DNA from: Flavobacteriales bacterium
GTDB lineage: Bacteria; Bacteroidota; Bacteroidia; Flavobacteriales_F; PHOS-HE28
NCBI GenBank assembly: GCA_023957375.1
Contig: JAMLHB010000001.1
Coordinates: forward strand, 1,528,245 to 1,592,244
DNA: 64,000 nucleotides
Direction: 5' to 3'
Under the pieces are notes generated by a model, which had not been told where the DNA came from, searched no databases, and was given only the letters and a program-made list of their open reading frames with translations. Numbering within the stretch: position 1 is the stretch's first letter; each line of letters opens with the position of its first letter. The position numbers were made by a program, and so were the translations under genes. This document shows, one piece after another, positions 2,676-50,719 of this stretch.

Positions 2676-3068
2676 ATGCGAACCCTTGCAACCCCGATCC
2701 TGTTGAGCCTTCTGCTTCTTGCGACCGCCTGTAAAAAGGAGGAGGGCGAGGGCGGCAAAGCCGTGATCAAGGGCACCGTGCTGCGGCAGGACGTGAACGC
2801 CGTGGGAAACCCCATCGGCAATCCCTACCCTTACCAAGACCAACGCGTTTACATCATTTACGGCGACAACGAATTCCAGGATGATGACGTGCGCACCGGG
2901 CCCAATGGGAATTTCGAGTTCCGCTGGCTTCGCAAGGGGGACTACACCGTCTACACGTTCGGCGAATGCAACTGCCCCGGTAAAAGCGTGGTCATCACCC
3001 ACCGGGTGAGCATCGACGGCAAGAAGGATGTGGTGATCGTGCCCACCATGATCGCCGACAACTTTTGA
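2676..3068 (+). CDS. Small lipoprotein with carboxypeptidase-regulatory-like fold
   Basis: A 130-residue protein with a lipoprotein signal peptide ending in the lipobox LATAC, so the Cys near residue 19 is probably lipidated. The mature part has the pattern of a single transthyretin-like/carboxypeptidase regulatory domain (IKGTVL near the start, then PNGNFEFRWLRKGDYTVYTF), usually a structural domain. It starts 30 bp after the acyl-CoA synthetase stop, the only gap in the operon. TACCTTCC at 2652-2659 resembles a -7 box and could give an internal promoter. The stop overlaps the TTG start of the next gene. Confidence 0.8.
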   Translation: MRTLATPILLSLLLLATACKKEEGEGGKAVIKGTVLRQDVNAVGNPIGNPYPYQDQRVYIIYGDNEFQDDDVRTGPNGNFEFRWLRKGDYTVYTFGECNCPGKSVVITHRVSIDGKKDVVIVPTMIADNF

Positions 3069-3787
3069 AAACCACCCGCCATATCCTGGCCGTGCTGCTT
3101 GCCGCCGCGGCCACCGGTGCCGCCCGTGCCCAGGGCGAAGCGCCCCTGCGCTTGGTCAATGACGCACAACTGTGGTTCAGCGCGGCCACTGAGTTCAAGC
3201 CATTCCGCAAAAAACAGGGCCAAGTGGCGCAAGCCCGCTTCTTCCGCAAGCTGCGCGCCACCGTGGAGCTGGACTTGAGGTTGAAGGAAAACGCCTCCGA
3301 GCTTAACCAGACCAACATCAACGCCGGGCTCTTTTACGCCATCACCAACTACATGCGGGTGGGCTCCGAATACCGGTACAGCATCCGGGACCCGTACAGC
3401 GCCAATCGGCACCGGATCGATGCACAACTGCGTTTCAAGGGAAAGAAAGGGCGCCTGGACGGTGACTTCCGCACGAAATACCAGCACTCATTCGTAGCCC
3501 CAAAAAAGTTGCGGACCGAGCTCCGCAACCGCATCGGCCTGGAATACGACATCCCGAAGTGGAAGCTGGACCCCATTGTGAACGTGGAATCGTTCACCGC
3601 CCTGCACTACACCGGCAACCGCTTAGTGGGCATGCGCTACGACCTCGGCACGGAGTTCAGGCTGGACAAGAACAAGCAAACCACGTTGGAGATCACCCTG
3701 CGCCACGACAGGGAAATGAACATCAAGGAACCTGACCATGCCTGGGTACTGGCCCTGGCTTTTGAATATTCCCCCAAGAAAAAGTGA
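3065..3787 (+). CDS. DUF2490 family outer-membrane protein
   Basis: A 240-residue protein with a signal peptide (cleavage probably after ARAQ near residue 23). The mature part alternates polar and hydrophobic residues in the manner of a small outer-membrane beta barrel. The order of motifs (LWFSAATEFKPF, LRATVELDLRLKEN, YRYSIRDPYSANRHRI, LRNRIGLEYDIPKW, LALAFEYSPKKK) fits DUF2490, described in Bacteroidota as a putative outer-membrane protein of unknown role. The start is TTG, chosen because it overlaps the upstream stop (TTGA) and leads straight into the signal peptide. The end overlaps the next gene's GTG by four bases. Confidence 0.85.
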   Translation: MKTTRHILAVLLAAAATGAARAQGEAPLRLVNDAQLWFSAATEFKPFRKKQGQVAQARFFRKLRATVELDLRLKENASELNQTNINAGLFYAITNYMRVGSEYRYSIRDPYSANRHRIDAQLRFKGKKGRLDGDFRTKYQHSFVAPKKLRTELRNRIGLEYDIPKWKLDPIVNVESFTALHYTGNRLVGMRYDLGTEFRLDKNKQTTLEITLRHDREMNIKEPDHAWVLALAFEYSPKKK

Positions 3788-36634: not shown

Positions 36635-39600
36635 ATGTGGAGACCTTCCTTTCTTTTCGCCCTGCTTCTGCCCGGCATCGTGGCCGCCCAAGCCTACGAC
36701 CCGCTACATCCGCCCAATACCTTCCGGCACGCGGACAATCCGTACTACTGGCAAAACTCCACGCCACGCCCGGGCTATTGGCAACAGGACGTGCACTACA
36801 ACATGGCCGCCAAGCTCGACGAGGAAAACGACCTGATCCAAGGCTCCGCCGTGCTCACCTACTGGAACAATTCCCCCGACACGCTGCGCGAGGTGTTCTT
36901 CCACCTCTATGCCAACGCCGCGCGAAAGGACAGCTACCGTAGCACGCTCATGGGGCCGGGGCATTGGCTGCGCGGCGACCACCAGGGAACCGAGGTCACC
37001 ACCATGACGGCCGACGGCCAAGAGCTGGTGCGCGAGGTGGACAACACGGTCATGCGCGTCACGCTTGCACGCCCGCTGCTCCCAGGCGGAAGCGTGGAGT
37101 TCCGTTATGCCTTCAACACCCGCTACGGGGGCATGAGCCGCATGAAGACCTACAAGCAATGGGGCTTCAAGCACTTCAACGGCACCCAGTGGTACCCGCG
37201 CATCAGCGTGTACGACCGCAAGTTCGGCTGGGACACCCAGCAGCACCTGGGCCACGAATACTACGGCGACTTCGGCACCTTCGATGTAAGCTTGGACATG
37301 CCCAATGACATGGTGGTGGAAGCCACCGGATGGCTGCAGAACCCGGAGGAGGTGATGCCGCCGGATCTGCGCCGCAAGCTCGATATCGCCAACTTCAAGG
37401 ACAAGCCCATGGGAGAGGTGCCTTCCGTGATAACACCCTACCAGCCCGGCGTGCGCAAGGTGTGGCGCTACCACGCCGAGAACGTGCACGACTTTGCCTT
37501 CACGGCCGACCCCACCTACCGCATCGGAGAGGCCGAATGGAACGGGATCAAGTGCATAGCGGTGGCCTGCGAGCCGCACGCCGCCAAATGGCAGAACGCG
37601 GCCGAATATGCTGCCCTCTGCATCAAGACCTTGAGCAACCTGGTCGGGCCCTACGGCTATCCGAAGATGGTGGTGGCCGACGCACGCGACGGCATGGAAT
37701 ACCCCATGCTCACGCTGGACAGTGGCGAGGAACCCGACTACCGCACCCTCTTCATGCACGAGATCGGCCACAACTGGTTCTTCGGCATGGTGGGCAACAA
37801 CGAAACCTATCGCGCCATGCTGGACGAAGGCTTCACCCAGTTCATTGAAACCATGGGCATGGAGATCGCCGATGGCGACACCTTGGTGGAGGAAGCACCC
37901 GCCAATGCCTACGCCAGGCGATGGACCAACCCCCAGCTCGCCCGGGACCGCCTGGCCTACAACAGCTACATGCACGCCGCCGTGCGCAACGCGCTGCCCC
38001 CGGTCAACGTGCACAGCGATGAATATGCACGCCTTCCAACAGGTTACCGCATGGTGTACTACAAAACGGCCACCATGCTCTTCAACCTGCAATACACCTT
38101 GGGCGACTCACTCTTCCTGGGGGCGCTGCGCCATTACTTCAACCAGTGGAAGTTCAAGCACCCCTACATGGAGGACATGCGCCAGAGCTTCACCGACTAC
38201 ACCAAAACCGACCTCAACTGGTTCTTCGACCAGTGGATCGAAACCGGCAAGGTCCTGGATTATGCCGTAAAAGGCGTGAAGAACCGCAAGGCGGACAGCG
38301 GGCAGGTGATCCACTTCCGCCGCGTGGGCGACATGCAGATGCCCATCGACTTCACCGTTATCGCCAACAACGGCAAGACCTATCCATTCCACATCCCCAA
38401 CAACTGGTTCGTGAAGCAAACACAAGCCACCGTGCTGCCACGGTGGATCGGCTTTGATGACCTGGCCCGGGACTACCACGCCCGCGTAGACATCCCTACG
38501 GGCATCACCAACGTGCAGATCGATACCACCTTCCGCTTAGGCGATGCCAACCCGCTGAACAACAGCCTGCGTTTCCCGCTTACCAGCACCTTCGACAGCC
38601 ACATCCGCAATGCCCCCGACCGGCGCAGCTACGAGAGCTTCGTGCGCCCGGACCTGTGGTACAACGGCTTCGACGGCATCAAGGCAGGCGTACACTTCAA
38701 CGGCAGTTTCTTCCGCTACAAGCACAAGGTGTGGTTCACCGCCTGGCTGAACACCGGCCTGGGCCAGAGCCTGCCCGGCGGAGGCGTGAACACCGCCTAC
38801 GACCCCATCAACTTCAACTTCCGCTACGAGAACGGCACCGGCCGGTTGCTCAATGGCTCCAGCGTGCACGTGGCAGCACGACTGCTCGACGGGCTGGAGC
38901 AGTATGAAGGCGGGTTCAAGTGGGACATCCCCTTCACCAACACTTCGCTCTACACCAACGCCAAATTCATGCTGCGGCGCGACAGCGCCGACCTCACCTA
39001 CCTGCTCTACCCCGGCCTGTGGCAATTGAACGCGCTCAACAGCACCTGGAACACCGGCGTGGAGCACCGCTACAACTGGAGCAAGGGCAATGGATCGGTG
39101 GCGCTGGATGTTCGCACGGCCGGCGTTGGCGCGGCATTCCCCTTTGCACAAGCCGCCGCCACCGCGATCAACAGCACCCGTTTGGGCCGCTTGGATCTGC
39201 GCACCCGGGCCATGGCGCAGTACGGCAGCGGCAACACCCCGCGCGAAAGCCAGCTCTACCTCGCCGGCGCCTCGCCCGAAGACCTGATGGACAACAAGTA
39301 TGTGCGCAGCATCGGCTTCGTGCCGTTCGATTGGATGGGCTACGGCGCCGGCCTCAACCACTTCCACCAAAGCGGCGGACTGGGCCTGCGCGGCTACGCG
39401 GGCTATTTGGCCCCCGAGGACATCGGTGGCGGCAACACCATCCTCACCTACGCCGGCAACACCGGTGCCGCCATCAATGCCGAACTGGACCTCGACGGGC
39501 TGGTGCGCTTCCGCCCCGGCAAGCTGGCCGACTACCTGCACCTGGACGTGTACCTCTTCGGCGACGTGGGCACCATGGGCTACCGCACGGTAACCGACTT

Positions 39601-39805
39601 GGGCACACCGCAGGTGAAGCTGGCCCTGCCCCGTGCCGATGCCGGGGCCGGTGCCGCCCTCACCATAAAAAAGTTCGGCCCCTTGGACCACATCAAGCCG
39701 CTCACCATCCGCTTCGACATGCCCTTGGTGCTTTCCGCCATACCCGCCGGTGAAAGCGAGCACGTGGCCTTCCGGTATGTGGTGGGGATCGGGAGGAGTT
39801 TTTAA
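36635..39805 (+). CDS. Secreted M1 family zinc metallopeptidase
   Basis: A 1056-residue protein with a short signal peptide (SFLFALLLPGIVAAQ). The M1 domain has the aminopeptidase exopeptidase-site equivalent DGMEYPMLT near residue 352 (GMEY instead of GAMEN) and the zinc site HEIGHNWFFG with His375, Glu376, His379 and the third ligand Glu398 in LDEGFTQF. After about residue 580 comes a second half of some 450 residues rich in alternating beta strands (YRYKHKVWF, GLRGYAGYLAPEDIGGGNT, ending in YVVGIGRSF), which fits an outer-membrane-barrel-like domain. Such fused M1 proteins occur in Bacteroidota. Its last 129 bp are duplicated downstream. Confidence 0.9.
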   Translation: MWRPSFLFALLLPGIVAAQAYDPLHPPNTFRHADNPYYWQNSTPRPGYWQQDVHYNMAAKLDEENDLIQGSAVLTYWNNSPDTLREVFFHLYANAARKDSYRSTLMGPGHWLRGDHQGTEVTTMTADGQELVREVDNTVMRVTLARPLLPGGSVEFRYAFNTRYGGMSRMKTYKQWGFKHFNGTQWYPRISVYDRKFGWDTQQHLGHEYYGDFGTFDVSLDMPNDMVVEATGWLQNPEEVMPPDLRRKLDIANFKDKPMGEVPSVITPYQPGVRKVWRYHAENVHDFAFTADPTYRIGEAEWNGIKCIAVACEPHAAKWQNAAEYAALCIKTLSNLVGPYGYPKMVVADARDGMEYPMLTLDSGEEPDYRTLFMHEIGHNWFFGMVGNNETYRAMLDEGFTQFIETMGMEIADGDTLVEEAPANAYARRWTNPQLARDRLAYNSYMHAAVRNALPPVNVHSDEYARLPTGYRMVYYKTATMLFNLQYTLGDSLFLGALRHYFNQWKFKHPYMEDMRQSFTDYTKTDLNWFFDQWIETGKVLDYAVKGVKNRKADSGQVIHFRRVGDMQMPIDFTVIANNGKTYPFHIPNNWFVKQTQATVLPRWIGFDDLARDYHARVDIPTGITNVQIDTTFRLGDANPLNNSLRFPLTSTFDSHIRNAPDRRSYESFVRPDLWYNGFDGIKAGVHFNGSFFRYKHKVWFTAWLNTGLGQSLPGGGVNTAYDPINFNFRYENGTGRLLNGSSVHVAARLLDGLEQYEGGFKWDIPFTNTSLYTNAKFMLRRDSADLTYLLYPGLWQLNALNSTWNTGVEHRYNWSKGNGSVALDVRTAGVGAAFPFAQAAATAINSTRLGRLDLRTRAMAQYGSGNTPRESQLYLAGASPEDLMDNKYVRSIGFVPFDWMGYGAGLNHFHQSGGLGLRGYAGYLAPEDIGGGNTILTYAGNTGAAINAELDLDGLVRFRPGKLADYLHLDVYLFGDVGTMGYRTVTDLGTPQVKLALPRADAGAGAALTIKKFGPLDHIKPLTIRFDMPLVLSAIPAGESEHVAFRYVVGIGRSF

Positions 39806-39823
39806 GCAGGAACCGGATCCACC

Positions 39824-40239
39824 CAACTTGGTCAAGCCATGAACAGGCCAGGAAATTTCGAGGAACGACGCAGGCTTCCAAAGGCCATTGGGCCACAATG
39901 CAACATACTAAGCCAGGTATACCCGCTCTGCCAACACCTCAATCCTCGTGAAAGTGCTGTTAAGCTGAATGGGAAGACTAAACGCCATGCAGCAATCGCC
40001 TGCCTTTCCGAAGGAAGACCCTGAAAGGGTCACACAGCGTAGAAAAGGCGATCAACGGTTCCACGACCCTGAAGGGGTCGCACAAATGCGGATGAACCAT
40101 AGGATTCCGTGAAGACCCCATTGCTCTGTGACCCCTTCAGGGTCAACCGTATTCCTTCCTTCCATGCTACGTTCTGAGACCCTTTCAGGGTCTACCTCAA
40201 CCCTTAAACAGCGGCACGGGACTTATTGGACAAGTCAGT
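39824..40239. other. Non-coding spacer between two copies of the M1 gene end
   Basis: No plausible gene; only short spurious frames. The spacer lies between the 129 bp direct repeats and holds four palindromes described separately. The part up to 40016 shows no other recognisable structure. Confidence 0.6.
40017..40192. repeat. Four 15 bp GACCCTGAAAGGGTC-type palindromes
   Basis: Copies at 40017-40031 (GACCCTGAAAGGGTC), 40065-40079 (GACCCTGAAGGGGTC), 40130-40144 (GACCCCTTCAGGGTC) and 40178-40192 (GACCCTTTCAGGGTC). The first two have one orientation and the last two the reverse, so the array is itself mirror-like. Spacing is about 48, 65 and 48 bases. Each can form a short hairpin. Confidence 0.85.
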
Positions 40240-40368
40240 AAGCCGCTCACCATCCGCTTCGACATGCCCTTGGTGCTTTCCGCCATCCCCGCCGGGGAAA
40301 CGGAACATGTGGCGTTCCGCTATGTGGTGGGGATCGGGCGGAGTTTTTGAGCAGGAACCGGATCCACC
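40240..40368 (+). pseudogene. 129 bp duplicate of the M1 peptidase gene 3' end
   Basis: This block aligns without gaps to 39695-39823 with 10 base differences. It would encode the last 36 residues of the peptidase (PLTIRFDMPLVLSA through YVVGIGRSF) and a TGA stop at 40348-40350, then 18 bases of matching downstream sequence. Nine of the differences are silent (counting the stop codon TAA/TGA); the only amino-acid change is Ser to Thr. No start codon or upstream part is present, so it is a remnant. The pattern suggests it came from a once-functional paralogue rather than a recent copy. Confidence 0.88.
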
Positions 40369-40400
40369 TACATTGCGCCATCCTTTTCAACCATCGGAAC

Positions 40401-41594
40401 ATGAAACCCTTGATCCTGCTCGCCAGTTCCCTCCTGTATGTGAACTGCACGGCCCAGTACTGGAGCCAAGACCCGAACCTTGCAGGCACCGCCCGCTGGG
40501 GGGCGGTGGGCTTCGCCACGGCCACCCATGGCTACATCTGCACCGGCGTAAGCAATGGAGGCAGCAACCTCGGCGACCTGTGGCAATGGAACCCGACATC
40601 CAACTCGTGGGCACAAAAGGCGGATTTCCCCGGCGGCCCACGCAGGGAGGGTGCAGCATTCTCCATCAATGGCATCGGCTACGTGGGCTTTGGGCGCTTG
40701 GGCCCTTCCGGTCCTTTCTTCAACGACCTGTGGGCCTACGATCCCGCCACGAACGCATGGGCCCAGAAAGCTTCCCTGCCCGCTGCGGGCAGAGCCGCCC
40801 CCGGCGTTTTCGTGCTAAACGGCAAGGCCTACCTCGTGAGCGGCTGCACCGGGCCGGCTCCCTACCCGAACGACCTTTGGGAATATGACCCGGCCACCAA
40901 TGCTTGGACGCAGCGGGCAAACCTGCCGTTCACCGGCCGCTCAGGGCCCATTGCCTTCGCCGTGTGGGGCAAAGGCTACATCGGTGGCGGCAATGACAAC
41001 AGCAGCGACCTGAACTCCACGGATTTCTGGGCATACAACCCGGCGACGGACAACTGGACCCAACGTGCAGATGTGCCAGGGCCTGCCCGCAGAACGGGTA
41101 ATGCCTTTGTGGTGAACAACATTCCGTACGCGGGTGGTGGATGGAACGGATCCTCCTATCTGGTGGACATGTACGCCTATAACCCATGGGCAAACAGTTG
41201 GACAACCATCAACAACTTTGGCGGTGCAGGCGCCCACACACCGGTGGCGTTTTCCATCGGGGGCACGGGCTACATGGGCACGGGCAGCACCAGCAGTGGT
41301 GCCACTGCCCAATTCTGGGAGTACAAGGGCGGGCCGGTGGGCATCGATGAGACCCCTACGGCATCCGCCATCCATCCGGTATTCCAACAAGACCAGATCA
41401 CCTTGAACGGATGGGCACCGGGACTGGCCGACGCATATACCATCCTGGATGCCAGTGGCCGCATCATCAGTACGGGGCACTTGGGCAGCTTGCTGATCGA
41501 GGTGCCGAAGAACTGCAGCGAGGGCGTGTATGCCTTGCTGCTGTCCAAAGGGAATGCACCGCTCGGCACTTGGCGCTTTGCCGTACTGCATTGA
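40401..41594 (+). CDS. Kelch-repeat surface protein with T9SS C-terminal tail
   Basis: A 397-residue protein with a signal peptide (LILLASSLLYVNCTAQ). At least five Kelch-type repeats follow, each with a blade such as NDLWAYDPATNAWAQKASLP, NDLWEYDPATNAWTQRANLP and DFWAYNPATDNWTQRADVP, so a beta propeller is expected (about residues 25-320). The last 75 residues have a sorting-domain pattern (AYTILDASGRIISTG, EGVYALLLSKGNAPLGTWRFAVL), compatible with T9SS type A, though the usual YPNP start is lost. Probably a surface adhesin or binding protein. Confidence 0.87.
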   Translation: MKPLILLASSLLYVNCTAQYWSQDPNLAGTARWGAVGFATATHGYICTGVSNGGSNLGDLWQWNPTSNSWAQKADFPGGPRREGAAFSINGIGYVGFGRLGPSGPFFNDLWAYDPATNAWAQKASLPAAGRAAPGVFVLNGKAYLVSGCTGPAPYPNDLWEYDPATNAWTQRANLPFTGRSGPIAFAVWGKGYIGGGNDNSSDLNSTDFWAYNPATDNWTQRADVPGPARRTGNAFVVNNIPYAGGGWNGSSYLVDMYAYNPWANSWTTINNFGGAGAHTPVAFSIGGTGYMGTGSTSSGATAQFWEYKGGPVGIDETPTASAIHPVFQQDQITLNGWAPGLADAYTILDASGRIISTGHLGSLLIEVPKNCSEGVYALLLSKGNAPLGTWRFAVLH

Positions 41595-41628
41595 CCGGGC
41601 CGAGGCATTGCTGGCACGATGCATCACC

Positions 41629-41768
41629 CGCCCGCGTTTGCAACGCAGGCGTACCATCCCGGTCGTTTGCAACGACCATCCCCAAACTATTCCCGCTGGC
41701 CACCAGCACCTGTTGCATGTGCGCGCTGCAAGCGCGCCTGGACCTTCGCCCGCGTTGCAAACGCGGGC
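41629..41768. repeat. Cluster of TTGCAA-centred palindromes between convergent genes
   Basis: Four palindromes: an imperfect one at 41629-41651 (CCCGCGTTTGCAACGC core), GGTCGTTTGCAACGACC at 41661-41677, GCGCGCTGCAAGCGCGC at 41721-41737, and a 21 bp one at 41748-41768 (CCGCGTTGCAAACGCGG core). All are hairpins around TTGCAA or CTGCAAG. They fill the 197 bp between the Kelch protein and a glycosyltransferase gene and may act as terminators for both, without T-runs. Confidence 0.75.
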
Positions 41769-41791
41769 GAGTGGGGGGCGAGTGTAGGGCC

Positions 41792-46703: not shown

Positions 46704-46911
46704 TGGGTCCGCAAGATGGCACGGATATGTCCTCTGTACCCCATCCGGACCAAAAGCTGGGGCTTGCCTACACGCGTATGTCGGCTCGGCATGTTTGTGG
46801 CGCCCAACACTTAAGCCCCGGATCCCTACATAAAGCCTTCGACACGCGTAGCGGTACTTGGAGAACACCTCCGAACATATCTTGCACTACACTTGACCCG
46901 CCCAACAGCGT
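46704..46911. other. Divergent spacer between flippase and T9SS type B protein
   Basis: 208 bp with no gene. A weak -7-like TATCTTG lies near 46879 for the plus-strand gene. No repeat or hairpin of note was seen. Confidence 0.4.
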
Positions 46912-49419
46912 ATGCGCTCCGCTCCTTCCTGGTTATTGCTGGTCTGTTGCGTTCTTATTGGAACCAGATCCCCGGCACAGGAAAATAACCATTGGTTCTT
47001 TGGGCATAACGTCAGACTTGACTTCAACGGAGGAGCCCCATTGGCGACCACAGGCCCATTGGAGGCCTTGGAAGGCACCGCAACCATTTCGGACCAAGGC
47101 GGAAATCTGCTGTTCTATACCAATGGTACAACAATTTGGGACCGGAATGGCAATGTGATGCCGAACGGGTCCGGAGTGCTCGGAGGCGCATCCAGCACAC
47201 AGGCTGCCTTGATCGTTGCAAAACCGGGTAGCTGCGGGATCTACTATGTCTTTACCACCCAAGACCATTTGCAGAGCGGGGATCTCCGGTATTCCGTGGT
47301 GGACATGTGCCTGAACAATGGATCTGGCGATGTGGTACCAGGTGAGAAGAACATCCTTCTCAACACGCCTTGCGGCGAGAAACTTACTGCCGTCCCGAAT
47401 ACCGCAGGCACCGGCTACTGGGTTATTGGCCACCGATTGGGAAGCAATGAGTTCATCGCCTATTCCCTTACTGCAGCAGGCCTCGACCTCTCGCCGGTGA
47501 TCAGCGGCACTGGTGCCTACCAAGCCAGTAATTGCACGATCGGCCCCTTGAAAGCCTCACCTGACGGGACCAGATTGGTGTGCATGACAACATTTTGCAA
47601 TTCCGTTGAACTATTCGATTTCAATGCGACGAACGGCGTGGTGGGCAATCCGTTGAACCTGACGAACCAGCACAGCCTTCCAAGTGGATGTTATGGCGCG
47701 GAATTCAGCCCTGATGGCCAGTTCTTGTACATTTCCACAACATGGATCACCAACAACCTTTACCAAATAAGCCTGACCAACTCCACTTCCTTGACGATCG
47801 CCAACGGGCCTTTGGGCGGATATCATTTCGGTGCCCTGCAATCAGCCCCGGATGGCCGCATTTACATGGCCCGGCCTGGCGAAGCCTTTGTTGATGTCAT
47901 TGCCTCACCCGACGCTTCGGGAACAGGCTGCAACTACCTCCCCGGTGGCCTGCCCCTGGCAGCCGGCACCTCCAGTGATCTCGGCATGCCCTGCATGATC
48001 CCCGCCACCATCCTGCAAACAGATACCGGTACTATACCGTTCAACCTCGGACCCGACACCGCCTTTTGCGGCGGATCTTTCACATTGACCGCACCCGCTG
48101 GATGCAGCAACATTTTCCTATGGCAGGACGGTTCCTCCGCTAATTCATTCACGGTATCACAACCGGGGACCTACTGGGTGCGTGTTTCCAATTCATGCGG
48201 AAGCGGTTCCGATACAATTTCCGTGTTCTCCGTGGGGCAAGCAATTGCCAACCTCGGACCGGACACGGCCCTGTGCGCGGGTTCTTCCATCATACTGGCC
48301 GCCCCGGCCGGTGCAGACAGCATTGTATGGCAGGACGGCAGCACCTTGGATGAATACACCGTCACGCTCCCAGGCACTTATTGGGCCCAAGTATTTTTCG
48401 GAACATGCATTGGGCAGGATTCCGTGATCGTATCCAGCATGCCCCAACCGCAGGCGGGGTTCTCCTACTCGGTTGACACATGCACCGGAACGGTGCAATT
48501 CATTGATGCTTCCCAAGGAGCTTCTGAATTGGAATGGGATTTCAGTGACGGGACAACAAGTACCGCGTTATCCCCGGAACACATCTATGCCGATCCAGGA
48601 TCCCATGCCGTTACGCTTCATGTGGCTAATGCCTGTGGTTCCGATGAAGTGGTTCAGCAGGTCGTTATTCCTGATGCCGGCCAAGTCCTTTTGAACGGGC
48701 CCGATTTAATCTGCACCGGCATTCCGGCAACCTATGAAGCATCTCTCATGGGGGCGGTTCCCTCTACCATCTCCTGGTCAAACGGCATTACAGACACACT
48801 GTCCATCACGTTCAGTCCGGATTCGAGCCTATGGCTGTCCATCACGGTACCCACCACCTTGGGGTGTGTACTGTCAGACAGCATCTTCATCAATCTCAGC
48901 CCACCGCCCGTCGCCGGTTTCAGCATCATCGGGCCCGGCAAGCTCTGTTCGGACTCGCCGATCACGCTGGGTATCGCCTACCCCGACAATGACCTCCAGG
49001 GCATCACTTGGTCCACTGGCGATTCCACGGCCACCATCACCCTCGTTCCGGTGCAAGGACAAGTGGTCTCCGTGGTGGCCACCACCGCGCAGGGCTGCCC
49101 ACTGACCGCCTCGGACACACTGGACTTCGCGGGCTACGGCGGGGCGAGTGACGCATTCATCCCCAACGTGTTCACGCCGAACGGGGATGGGATCAACGAG
49201 GTCTTCGCGCCGGAGGTCCCTGCTGGCTTCATCAGCATGGACATTTTCAACCGCTGGGGGCAGGAGCTCTACCACACCAACAGTACGGACCAGCCGTGGC
49301 ACGGCGATCATAGGGCCAGCCCAGTCCCGGACGGCACGTACACATACATCGTGAAGTGGGCGGATCAATGCACTGGGAAAGAGCGGCAGAAGATCGGCCA
49401 CGTCACGGTACTGCGCTGA
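46912..49419 (+). CDS. Secreted PKD-domain protein with T9SS type B sorting domain
   Basis: An 835-residue protein. Signal peptide WLLLVCCVLIGTRSPAQ; N-terminal propeller-like part (about 25-360: NNHWFFGHNVRLDFNGG, FTTQDHLQSGDLRYSVVDM, YGAEFSPDGQFLYIST, SAPDGRIYMARPGEAF); several Ig/PKD-like modules (repeated LGPDTALCAGSSI and WQDGSSANSFTVSQPGTYWV, then EWDFSDGTT near 545); and a C-terminal gliding-motility-associated domain (FIPNVFTPNGDGINEVFAP, FNRWGQELYHT, PDGTYTYIVKW) of type B. Such proteins are exported by the T9SS and stay at the surface. Its last 17 bases overlap the opposite glycosyltransferase gene. Confidence 0.93.
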   Translation: MRSAPSWLLLVCCVLIGTRSPAQENNHWFFGHNVRLDFNGGAPLATTGPLEALEGTATISDQGGNLLFYTNGTTIWDRNGNVMPNGSGVLGGASSTQAALIVAKPGSCGIYYVFTTQDHLQSGDLRYSVVDMCLNNGSGDVVPGEKNILLNTPCGEKLTAVPNTAGTGYWVIGHRLGSNEFIAYSLTAAGLDLSPVISGTGAYQASNCTIGPLKASPDGTRLVCMTTFCNSVELFDFNATNGVVGNPLNLTNQHSLPSGCYGAEFSPDGQFLYISTTWITNNLYQISLTNSTSLTIANGPLGGYHFGALQSAPDGRIYMARPGEAFVDVIASPDASGTGCNYLPGGLPLAAGTSSDLGMPCMIPATILQTDTGTIPFNLGPDTAFCGGSFTLTAPAGCSNIFLWQDGSSANSFTVSQPGTYWVRVSNSCGSGSDTISVFSVGQAIANLGPDTALCAGSSIILAAPAGADSIVWQDGSTLDEYTVTLPGTYWAQVFFGTCIGQDSVIVSSMPQPQAGFSYSVDTCTGTVQFIDASQGASELEWDFSDGTTSTALSPEHIYADPGSHAVTLHVANACGSDEVVQQVVIPDAGQVLLNGPDLICTGIPATYEASLMGAVPSTISWSNGITDTLSITFSPDSSLWLSITVPTTLGCVLSDSIFINLSPPPVAGFSIIGPGKLCSDSPITLGIAYPDNDLQGITWSTGDSTATITLVPVQGQVVSVVATTAQGCPLTASDTLDFAGYGGASDAFIPNVFTPNGDGINEVFAPEVPAGFISMDIFNRWGQELYHTNSTDQPWHGDHRASPVPDGTYTYIVKWADQCTGKERQKIGHVTVLR

Positions 49420-50719
49420 CCGGACCTTGGCTCCTGGGTACGCCGCGCCGGGCCACCGATACCAGTACTTCCGCCACGTGCGCGCAGGTGGTCTTCCGCG
49501 ACCACCTCGGGTCGGGCTCACAGCGTGCCACCGTGAACATGGCCTTGATCCGATCCCGCTGCTCCATCAAGCCCGGCCTGTTGATCACGGCATGTGGTGC
49601 TCGGTCCAGCACGCGCGACACATCGCCTTCCACCGGGCCCACTGCCAGTACCGGCCGGCCGGTGCTCACGTATTCGAAGAGCTTGCCCGGCAGGATGCCC
49701 ATCAGGTTGGGCGTATCGTTCACCAGTAACAGCAGGGCCCGCGCGCGCTGCATGTGGCGCATGGCTTCTTCATGCGAAACGCGCCCGGTGCGCTCCAAGT
49801 GTGCGCCCAGCCCGGCTTCCGCCACGCTTTCCGCAATGGTGTGGTCCACCGGGCCCACGAACCGCAGCTTGAATTTTGCCGCGAAAACCGGGTCTTCATC
49901 GCAGAGCTGCTTCAACGCCCGCCACAGTTCCGGGGCATTGCGCGAGGGCGAAAGCGATCCGATGTGTACCAGGCTGAACGCTTCATCCACGGGTTCAGAC
50001 GGTGAAGGCAGATCGTCCGGATCGTAGCCGTTGGTGATCACCTCCACTTGCTTGGCGCCAAGCTTCTTCAGGTCATCGGCCCAGTGCCAGCTTACGCACA
50101 GCACCCGGTCCGCTTCGCGCAGCACTTCCCCTTCCAAGCGTTTATGCTTGGCATCCGCCCAGCGGGTCAACTTCAGTTGCGCATAAAAGTCGATGTCCGT
50201 CCACGGGTCGCGGAAGTCGGCGATCCACTTCACGCCCAGCGCGCGCTTCAATCCAAGGCCGATCAGGTGCATGCTGTGCGGCGGGCCGGTGGAGATGATG
50301 GCGTCCACGGGGTTCTTCCTCAGGTATTCCTTCAGGAATTTCACCGATGGCCGCACCCACCACACCCGCGCATCGGGGATGAAGAAGTTGCTGCGCACCC
50401 ACAGCGCGAGATCTTCCTTCCACCCGCCTTGCTTCTTTTCGTTGAGGAAGCCCACCTGCACCTTCTCCTTGGTGCTGCGACCGGTGAAGCGTTTGTACAG
50501 GTTGAACGGTTCGGTGATGGGGCGCTTCACCACCTCCAGGTCCTGGCTCACGTCCTTCAACAAGCCTGGATCATCGGCCACCACCTCCGGGTTTACCGGC
50601 GTGTAGATCACCGGTAGCCAACCGTGCTCCGGCAACAGTTTGCTGAGCTTCAGCCACCGGTATACACCCGCACCACCGTTCGGTGGCCAGTAGTAGGTGA
50701 TGATGAGGACGCGTTTCAT
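49403..50719 (-). CDS. Glycosyltransferase (GT4-like)
   Basis: A 438-residue GT-B protein. The start RVLIITYYWPPNGGAGVYRW and ISTGPPHSMHLIGLGLKRAL with WIADFRDPWTDIDFY are a well-conserved subfamily in Bacteroidota; donor half includes VITNGYDPDDLP, LVHIGSLSPSRNAPELWRAL near residue 258 and ILPGKLFEYVSTGRPVLAVG near 362. The ATG at 50719 is used; a longer frame would translate the heptamer repeat upstream. Next to YfhO, with which it probably shares a function in envelope glycan or teichoic-type modification, but not in the same tight operon (115 bp gap). Confidence 0.87.
   Translation of the reverse strand: MKRVLIITYYWPPNGGAGVYRWLKLSKLLPEHGWLPVIYTPVNPEVVADDPGLLKDVSQDLEVVKRPITEPFNLYKRFTGRSTKEKVQVGFLNEKKQGGWKEDLALWVRSNFFIPDARVWWVRPSVKFLKEYLRKNPVDAIISTGPPHSMHLIGLGLKRALGVKWIADFRDPWTDIDFYAQLKLTRWADAKHKRLEGEVLREADRVLCVSWHWADDLKKLGAKQVEVITNGYDPDDLPSPSEPVDEAFSLVHIGSLSPSRNAPELWRALKQLCDEDPVFAAKFKLRFVGPVDHTIAESVAEAGLGAHLERTGRVSHEEAMRHMQRARALLLLVNDTPNLMGILPGKLFEYVSTGRPVLAVGPVEGDVSRVLDRAPHAVINRPGLMEQRDRIKAMFTVARCEPDPRWSRKTTCAHVAEVLVSVARRGVPRSQGPVSAVP

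Follow-up and report, generated by a model that had tools for sequence, protein, structure and literature searches.

The duplicated 3' end of an M1 peptidase gene in the window, a stretch of 64,000 nucleotides of Flavobacteriales DNA, very probably reflects the insertion of a MITE-like element of 418 bp just behind the M1 stop codon with duplication of about 127 bp of the target. An empty site in a relative, related elements in sister species and direct repeats at all seven complete copies of the element together argue for an insertion with target duplication.

The two copies of the gene end (39695-39823 and 40240-40368) can be aligned without any gap over 129 bp, with 10 differences. They contain codons 1021-1056 of the M1 gene (36635-39805, 1056 aa), the stop codon and 18 bases 3' to it. 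Realignment confirmed the gapless match, the number of differences and the extent (last 36 codons, stop and 18 bases beyond) that had been proposed by an earlier inspection of the letters, referred to here as the sequence-only reading. In the same way, its single amino acid change from Ser to Thr was recovered, along with a change of the stop codon between TAA and TGA. The ungapped alignment score of the pair is 204, whereas 200 shuffles of the flank gave at most 29. Two features were absent from the sequence-only reading, namely the clustering of the differences and the position of the repeats, each directly against one end of an element that has inverted termini. As to the clustering, 47 identical bases are followed by 63 bp that contain all 10 differences and then by 19 identical bases, a range this narrow having a probability of P = 0.006. 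When bounded by the element ends, the duplication measures 127 bp. Its left copy (39695-39821, forward strand) is identical to the right copy (40240-40366, forward strand) at 117 of 127 positions and reaches the left end of the element with a gap of 0 bp; the 2 bp at this left junction (CC, 39822-39823, forward strand) can be assigned either to the left repeat or to the element.

The M1-family peptidase gene lies on the forward strand (Pfam PF01433, E 1.3e-15). The left repeat copy is the native 3' end of this gene, whose reading frame is intact. Orthologues were present in all 39 genomes searched. Downstream of the insertion lies an intact gene encoding a Kelch-repeat protein (40401-41594, forward strand; Pfam Kelch families). 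In G019, the nearest relative among the genomes searched, a single M1 tail is directly followed by the Kelch region, which constitutes an empty site. The segment from 40240 to 41596 is 92.7% identical to G019 and, once the element and one repeat are removed, the flanks in the window are collinear with G019 with one gap of 1 nt. The right copy, a non-functional gene tail collinear with the M1 tail and Kelch region of G019, is therefore in its native downstream context, and the element with one repeat is extra in the genome of the window (G000). No tRNA was found in the window, and tRNA-linked integration at the M1 site was rejected on this ground. Two further observations were made nearby. An imperfect inverted repeat with 50-nt arms that are 74% complementary and with CGCCCGCGTTTGCAACGC-type repeats is located behind the Kelch gene (41625-41773), and about 2.7 kb (46720-49470) finds no counterpart in the G019 contig, which is collinear elsewhere, corresponding to an insertion or a replacement.

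The element (39822-40239, forward strand) is a small non-autonomous, MITE-like sequence with terminal inverted repeats and internal REP-like hairpins. It aligns end to end with six complete relatives from G005 and G049 and is absent from the orthologous site of G019. Its left terminal inverted repeat is CCCAACTTGGTCAA (39822-39835, forward strand; consensus CCCGACTTGTCCAA), and the right one reads ACTGACTTGTCCAA inward (40226-40239, reverse strand). Four palindromes (GACCCTGAARGGGTC) are found internally, about 50-200 bp from the element ends, and form two nested inverted pairs. Palindromes 1 (GACCCTGAAAGGGTC, 40017-40031) and 2 (GACCCTGAAGGGGTC, 40065-40079) are on the forward strand; palindrome 3 (40130-40144, reverse strand) is the inverted partner of palindrome 2 and palindrome 4 (40178-40192, reverse strand) that of palindrome 1, each pairing with its partner in the fold. 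The palindrome motif has four exact matches in the window, for 0.25 expected with up to 2 mismatches. As a single strand, the element folds far better than shuffled sequence (z = -5.5). The nested pairing is kept in all copies, but with slight covariation (4 pairs), so that the fold is a consequence of the palindromes and is not proven separately. The longest listed open reading frame inside the element has 61 aa and no transposase is encoded. No integrase was detected within the 418 bp and no known RNA family matched.

A search with the window segment revealed, in G005, homologues of the 416 bp that separate the two 129-bp copies, and a search of the genus with one of these homologues revealed further copies in G049 and fragments in G050. 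Complete copies amount to seven in three genomes (one in the window, three in G005 and three in G049) and measure 418-440 bp, the six from sister species being 426-440 bp long and those within G005 about 82% alike. Inverted termini of the CCCGACTTGTCCAA type at both ends and the four palindromes are common to all seven. The terminus search covered 45 genomes of the genus, a search set at the level of the order giving the same set. Among 84,980 species genomes, the left-end pattern gave only five hits in three MAGs, apparently G005, G049 and G050, and a plasmid search for the element gave no match. In G049 and G050, several element ends lie beyond the limits of their contigs. In G050, the right end of an element is tandemly duplicated over 131 bp with 97% identity (L083:1310-1575, G050:C79).

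Direct repeats abut both termini with a gap of 0 bp in each of the seven complete copies. The window element is flanked by 127 bp of M1 tail. In G005, the repeats measure 137/131 bp in non-coding DNA (C67), 38 bp at the end of a gene named by eye as an HxlR-like regulator (C4) and 8 bp, perfect but short (C199). In G049, they measure 118 bp across the tails of two converging genes (C109), 79/78 bp in DNA beside a stretch that looks tRNA-like by eye (C93) and 7 bp, again perfect but short (C74). The five long pairs score 41-236, whereas shuffled sequences reach at most 28-37. The repeats that flank different copies are mutually unrelated in sequence, and the gene tails at two other element sites are single in relatives. 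Since unrelated repeats abut the termini in every complete copy, the repeated M1 tail is read as a long target-site duplication. As a control, 11 insertion sequence copies from four DDE families in the genome of the window (plus one sister copy) carry duplications of 4-14 bp. The long repeat pairs have diverged by 6-18%, which indicates that the insertions are old and that the repeats would presumably have been identical at the time of insertion. In G049, the duplicated gene tail occurs a third time beyond a cellular gene (L206:2718-2821, G049:C109); over 60 bp this copy and the second one share 98% identity, although each has about 87% identity to the functional tail. The adjacent stretch of 1.45 kb was considered as an autonomous element and rejected, as it holds an ordinary cellular gene.

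Elsewhere in the genus, two insertions of RAYT (Y1 transposase, IS200-like) units with flanking REP palindromes also sit between long direct repeats of gene 3' ends. One, at the acs tail, is flanked by 117-bp repeats in the genome of the window (L061:2234-2349 and 3059-3175, G000:C2 at about 169.7-170.7 kb) and by 144-bp repeats in G019 (L071, G019:C4); the other lies between gene-end repeats of about 100 bp in G010 (L157:1026-1125 and 1912-2010, G010:C190). Terminal inverted repeats like those of the 418-bp element are lacking in these units. According to PMC2817692, IS200/IS605 elements have neither terminal inverted repeats nor larger target duplications. The RAYT cases could mean that the long duplication stems from a process of the host and not from the transposase of the element, and for this reason a common host process stays a rival: an illegitimate event linked to replication or repair would produce a long target duplication whatever DNA is inserted. 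The same pattern is described for restriction-modification genes of Helicobacter pylori (PMC1643837, PMC3031569), and the RAYT units, devoid of terminal inverted repeats and placed between gene-tail repeats of about 100-144 bp, fit with it. However, the seven elements share exact termini that the repeats abut in every copy, which points to a transposase, and the duplications beside ordinary insertion sequences of that genome are short. As an explanation of the M1 site, the host process is distinctly unlikely.

The sequence-only reading had itself offered two origins, a 3' end brought in by an inserted element in the manner of an att site and the tail of a lost paralogue. It was upheld in part, as an inserted element does lie between the copies, and neither the carried tail nor the paralogue tail stood. 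In the comparison with relatives that it had suggested, G019 showed neither a tandem M1 gene nor the element. Integrative elements that carry a gene 3' end are known, prophages 21 and e14 in icd being examples, and the nearly exclusively synonymous differences would suit a tail from another genome left as attL/attR by an element that was since mostly lost. Nevertheless, the repeats beside related elements are unrelated in sequence and differ in length, so that no att sequence is common to the insertions and the tail was copied from the target at insertion; furthermore, the 418 bp lack an integrase and end in conserved inverted repeats. The att-site origin is accordingly refuted and retains a very small probability. 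An origin from a lost tandem M1 paralogue, or from an unequal exchange followed by deletion, is even less credible, for although the extra tail looks constrained by coding, G019 has a single gene without a further tail, neither a tandem M1 gene nor a second M1 tail was found at the locus in relatives, the other M1-protein matches in G000 are about 32% identical and, among the matches listed, end by residue 716 and thus short of the C-terminus, and the space between the copies is filled by a mobile element with exact ends whose family refutes this origin.

In the preferred reading of an insertion with target duplication, a transposase acting in trans would join the two element ends to opposite target strands at points 7-137 bp apart, and gap repair would then yield the long repeats. 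The M1 gene has retained its own tail as the left copy, while the native tail, joined to the Kelch gene, was left dead as the right copy. Both the M1 tail and the upstream region of the Kelch gene are kept, since the element has the target segment at either end. Such a dead copy would not be expected to stay synonymous only. Yet the coding-constrained look that the sequence-only reading attributed to the copy was borne out, the differences being mostly synonymous. At four sites, the right copy has a base found neither in the left copy nor in G019, and all four changes are synonymous (about 25% each at random, about 0.004 together). Near 38.7-39.0 kb, within the M1 gene, identity to G019 rises abruptly from about 80% on the left to about 93% on the right and remains high until 46.7 kb; this step marks a homologous-recombination boundary inside the M1 gene. 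The lack of decay in the right copy means that the insertion model needs an additional recombination step, and later recombination of uninserted alleles with the site would be the simplest account of the mostly synonymous differences. Overwriting of the right copy or of the left tail by an uninserted allele is reasonably likely compared with slow decay of a dead copy, as suggested by the four synonymous sites, the clustering of the differences and the identity step. On the other hand, very few sites are involved and 111 bp cannot resolve the order of events.

The enzyme that would move the element was sought among the hosts and their relatives. A transposase gene bearing the termini of the element was not found in any of the 45 congeneric genomes. 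The curated cut-off for IS1634 transposases (NF033559) was passed in none of G000, G005 and G049. A transposase above it occurs only in G043, and it was rejected as a partner since the element was not found in that genome and no matching termini surround its IS1634 gene. Other DDE families in G000, G005, G049 and G050 were rejected as well, their ends being different where readable and their duplications being 4-14 bp in the copies examined. Given the element ends lost at contig limits in G049 and G050, a partner may hide in assembly gaps. The seven duplication lengths (7, 8, 38, 78/79, 118, 127 and 137/131) lie near 7-8 modulo 10, with a best period of 9.95-10.1 bp and a p of 0.001-0.08 depending on the choice of lengths, for seven copies and a post hoc comparison; no periodicity is claimed. 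A tentative picture, rather unlikely as a whole, is that an enzyme from outside the IS1634 family moves the elements of this genus and attaches their ends to target positions separated by up to about 137 bp, that the spacings may cluster near multiples of about 10 bp through helix-phased strand transfer, and that the long duplications also arise with RAYT units, which are not known to duplicate their targets.

For most transposases, the length of the target duplication is fixed by the geometry of the enzyme. A compact family with duplications of 7-137 bp at readable sites offers a way to test how this spacing arises. In addition, long target duplication explains puzzling duplicated gene ends that might be mistaken for lost paralogues or att sites.

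Among known systems, IS1549 and IS1634 are reported to make long variable duplications of 8-514 bp, for which a review found no proposed mechanism, and within the IS1634 family such duplications are reported only for these two, most members having 5-6 bp (PMC2266710). The element of the window resembles them in outcome, its family also making long variable direct repeats of 7-137 bp, and CCCGACTT of the element fits the end signature of the IS1634 family, C-----YT (PMC2266710), which is a weak signature. It differs from that family in being non-coding, in measuring 418-440 bp and in having no IS1634 transposase above cut-off in its host genomes. Membership is not claimed and, as the enzyme was sought and not found, the element is not filed under IS1634. 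The IS1202 subgroup also makes unusually long duplications of 16-28 bp (PMC10132070), but these are shorter than those described here, and its ends start with TGT whereas those of the element start with CCC. Insertion with long target duplication is described for restriction-modification genes of H. pylori (PMC1643837, and PMC3031569 citing Nobusato et al. 2000). The likeness lies in the long variable direct target repeats that flank the inserted DNA; the DNA inserted there carries genes, whereas here a single element family with conserved inverted termini is involved. The palindromes GACCCTGAARGGGTC match those beside a RAYT gene (PF01797) in the same genome, which recalls REP/BIME and RAYT systems. 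In contrast to a RAYT/REP transposon, which has REP hairpins at or near its ends and no terminal inverted repeats, the palindromes of the element are internal and inverted termini are present. Finally, the BrickBuilt MITEs of Porphyromonas gingivalis are MITEs from Bacteroidota that have terminal inverted repeats and, inside, repeats able to form hairpins (PMC4596501). By description, the window element has both of these features, and it differs from BrickBuilt in the length of its target duplications, those quoted for BrickBuilt being short (PMC4596501).
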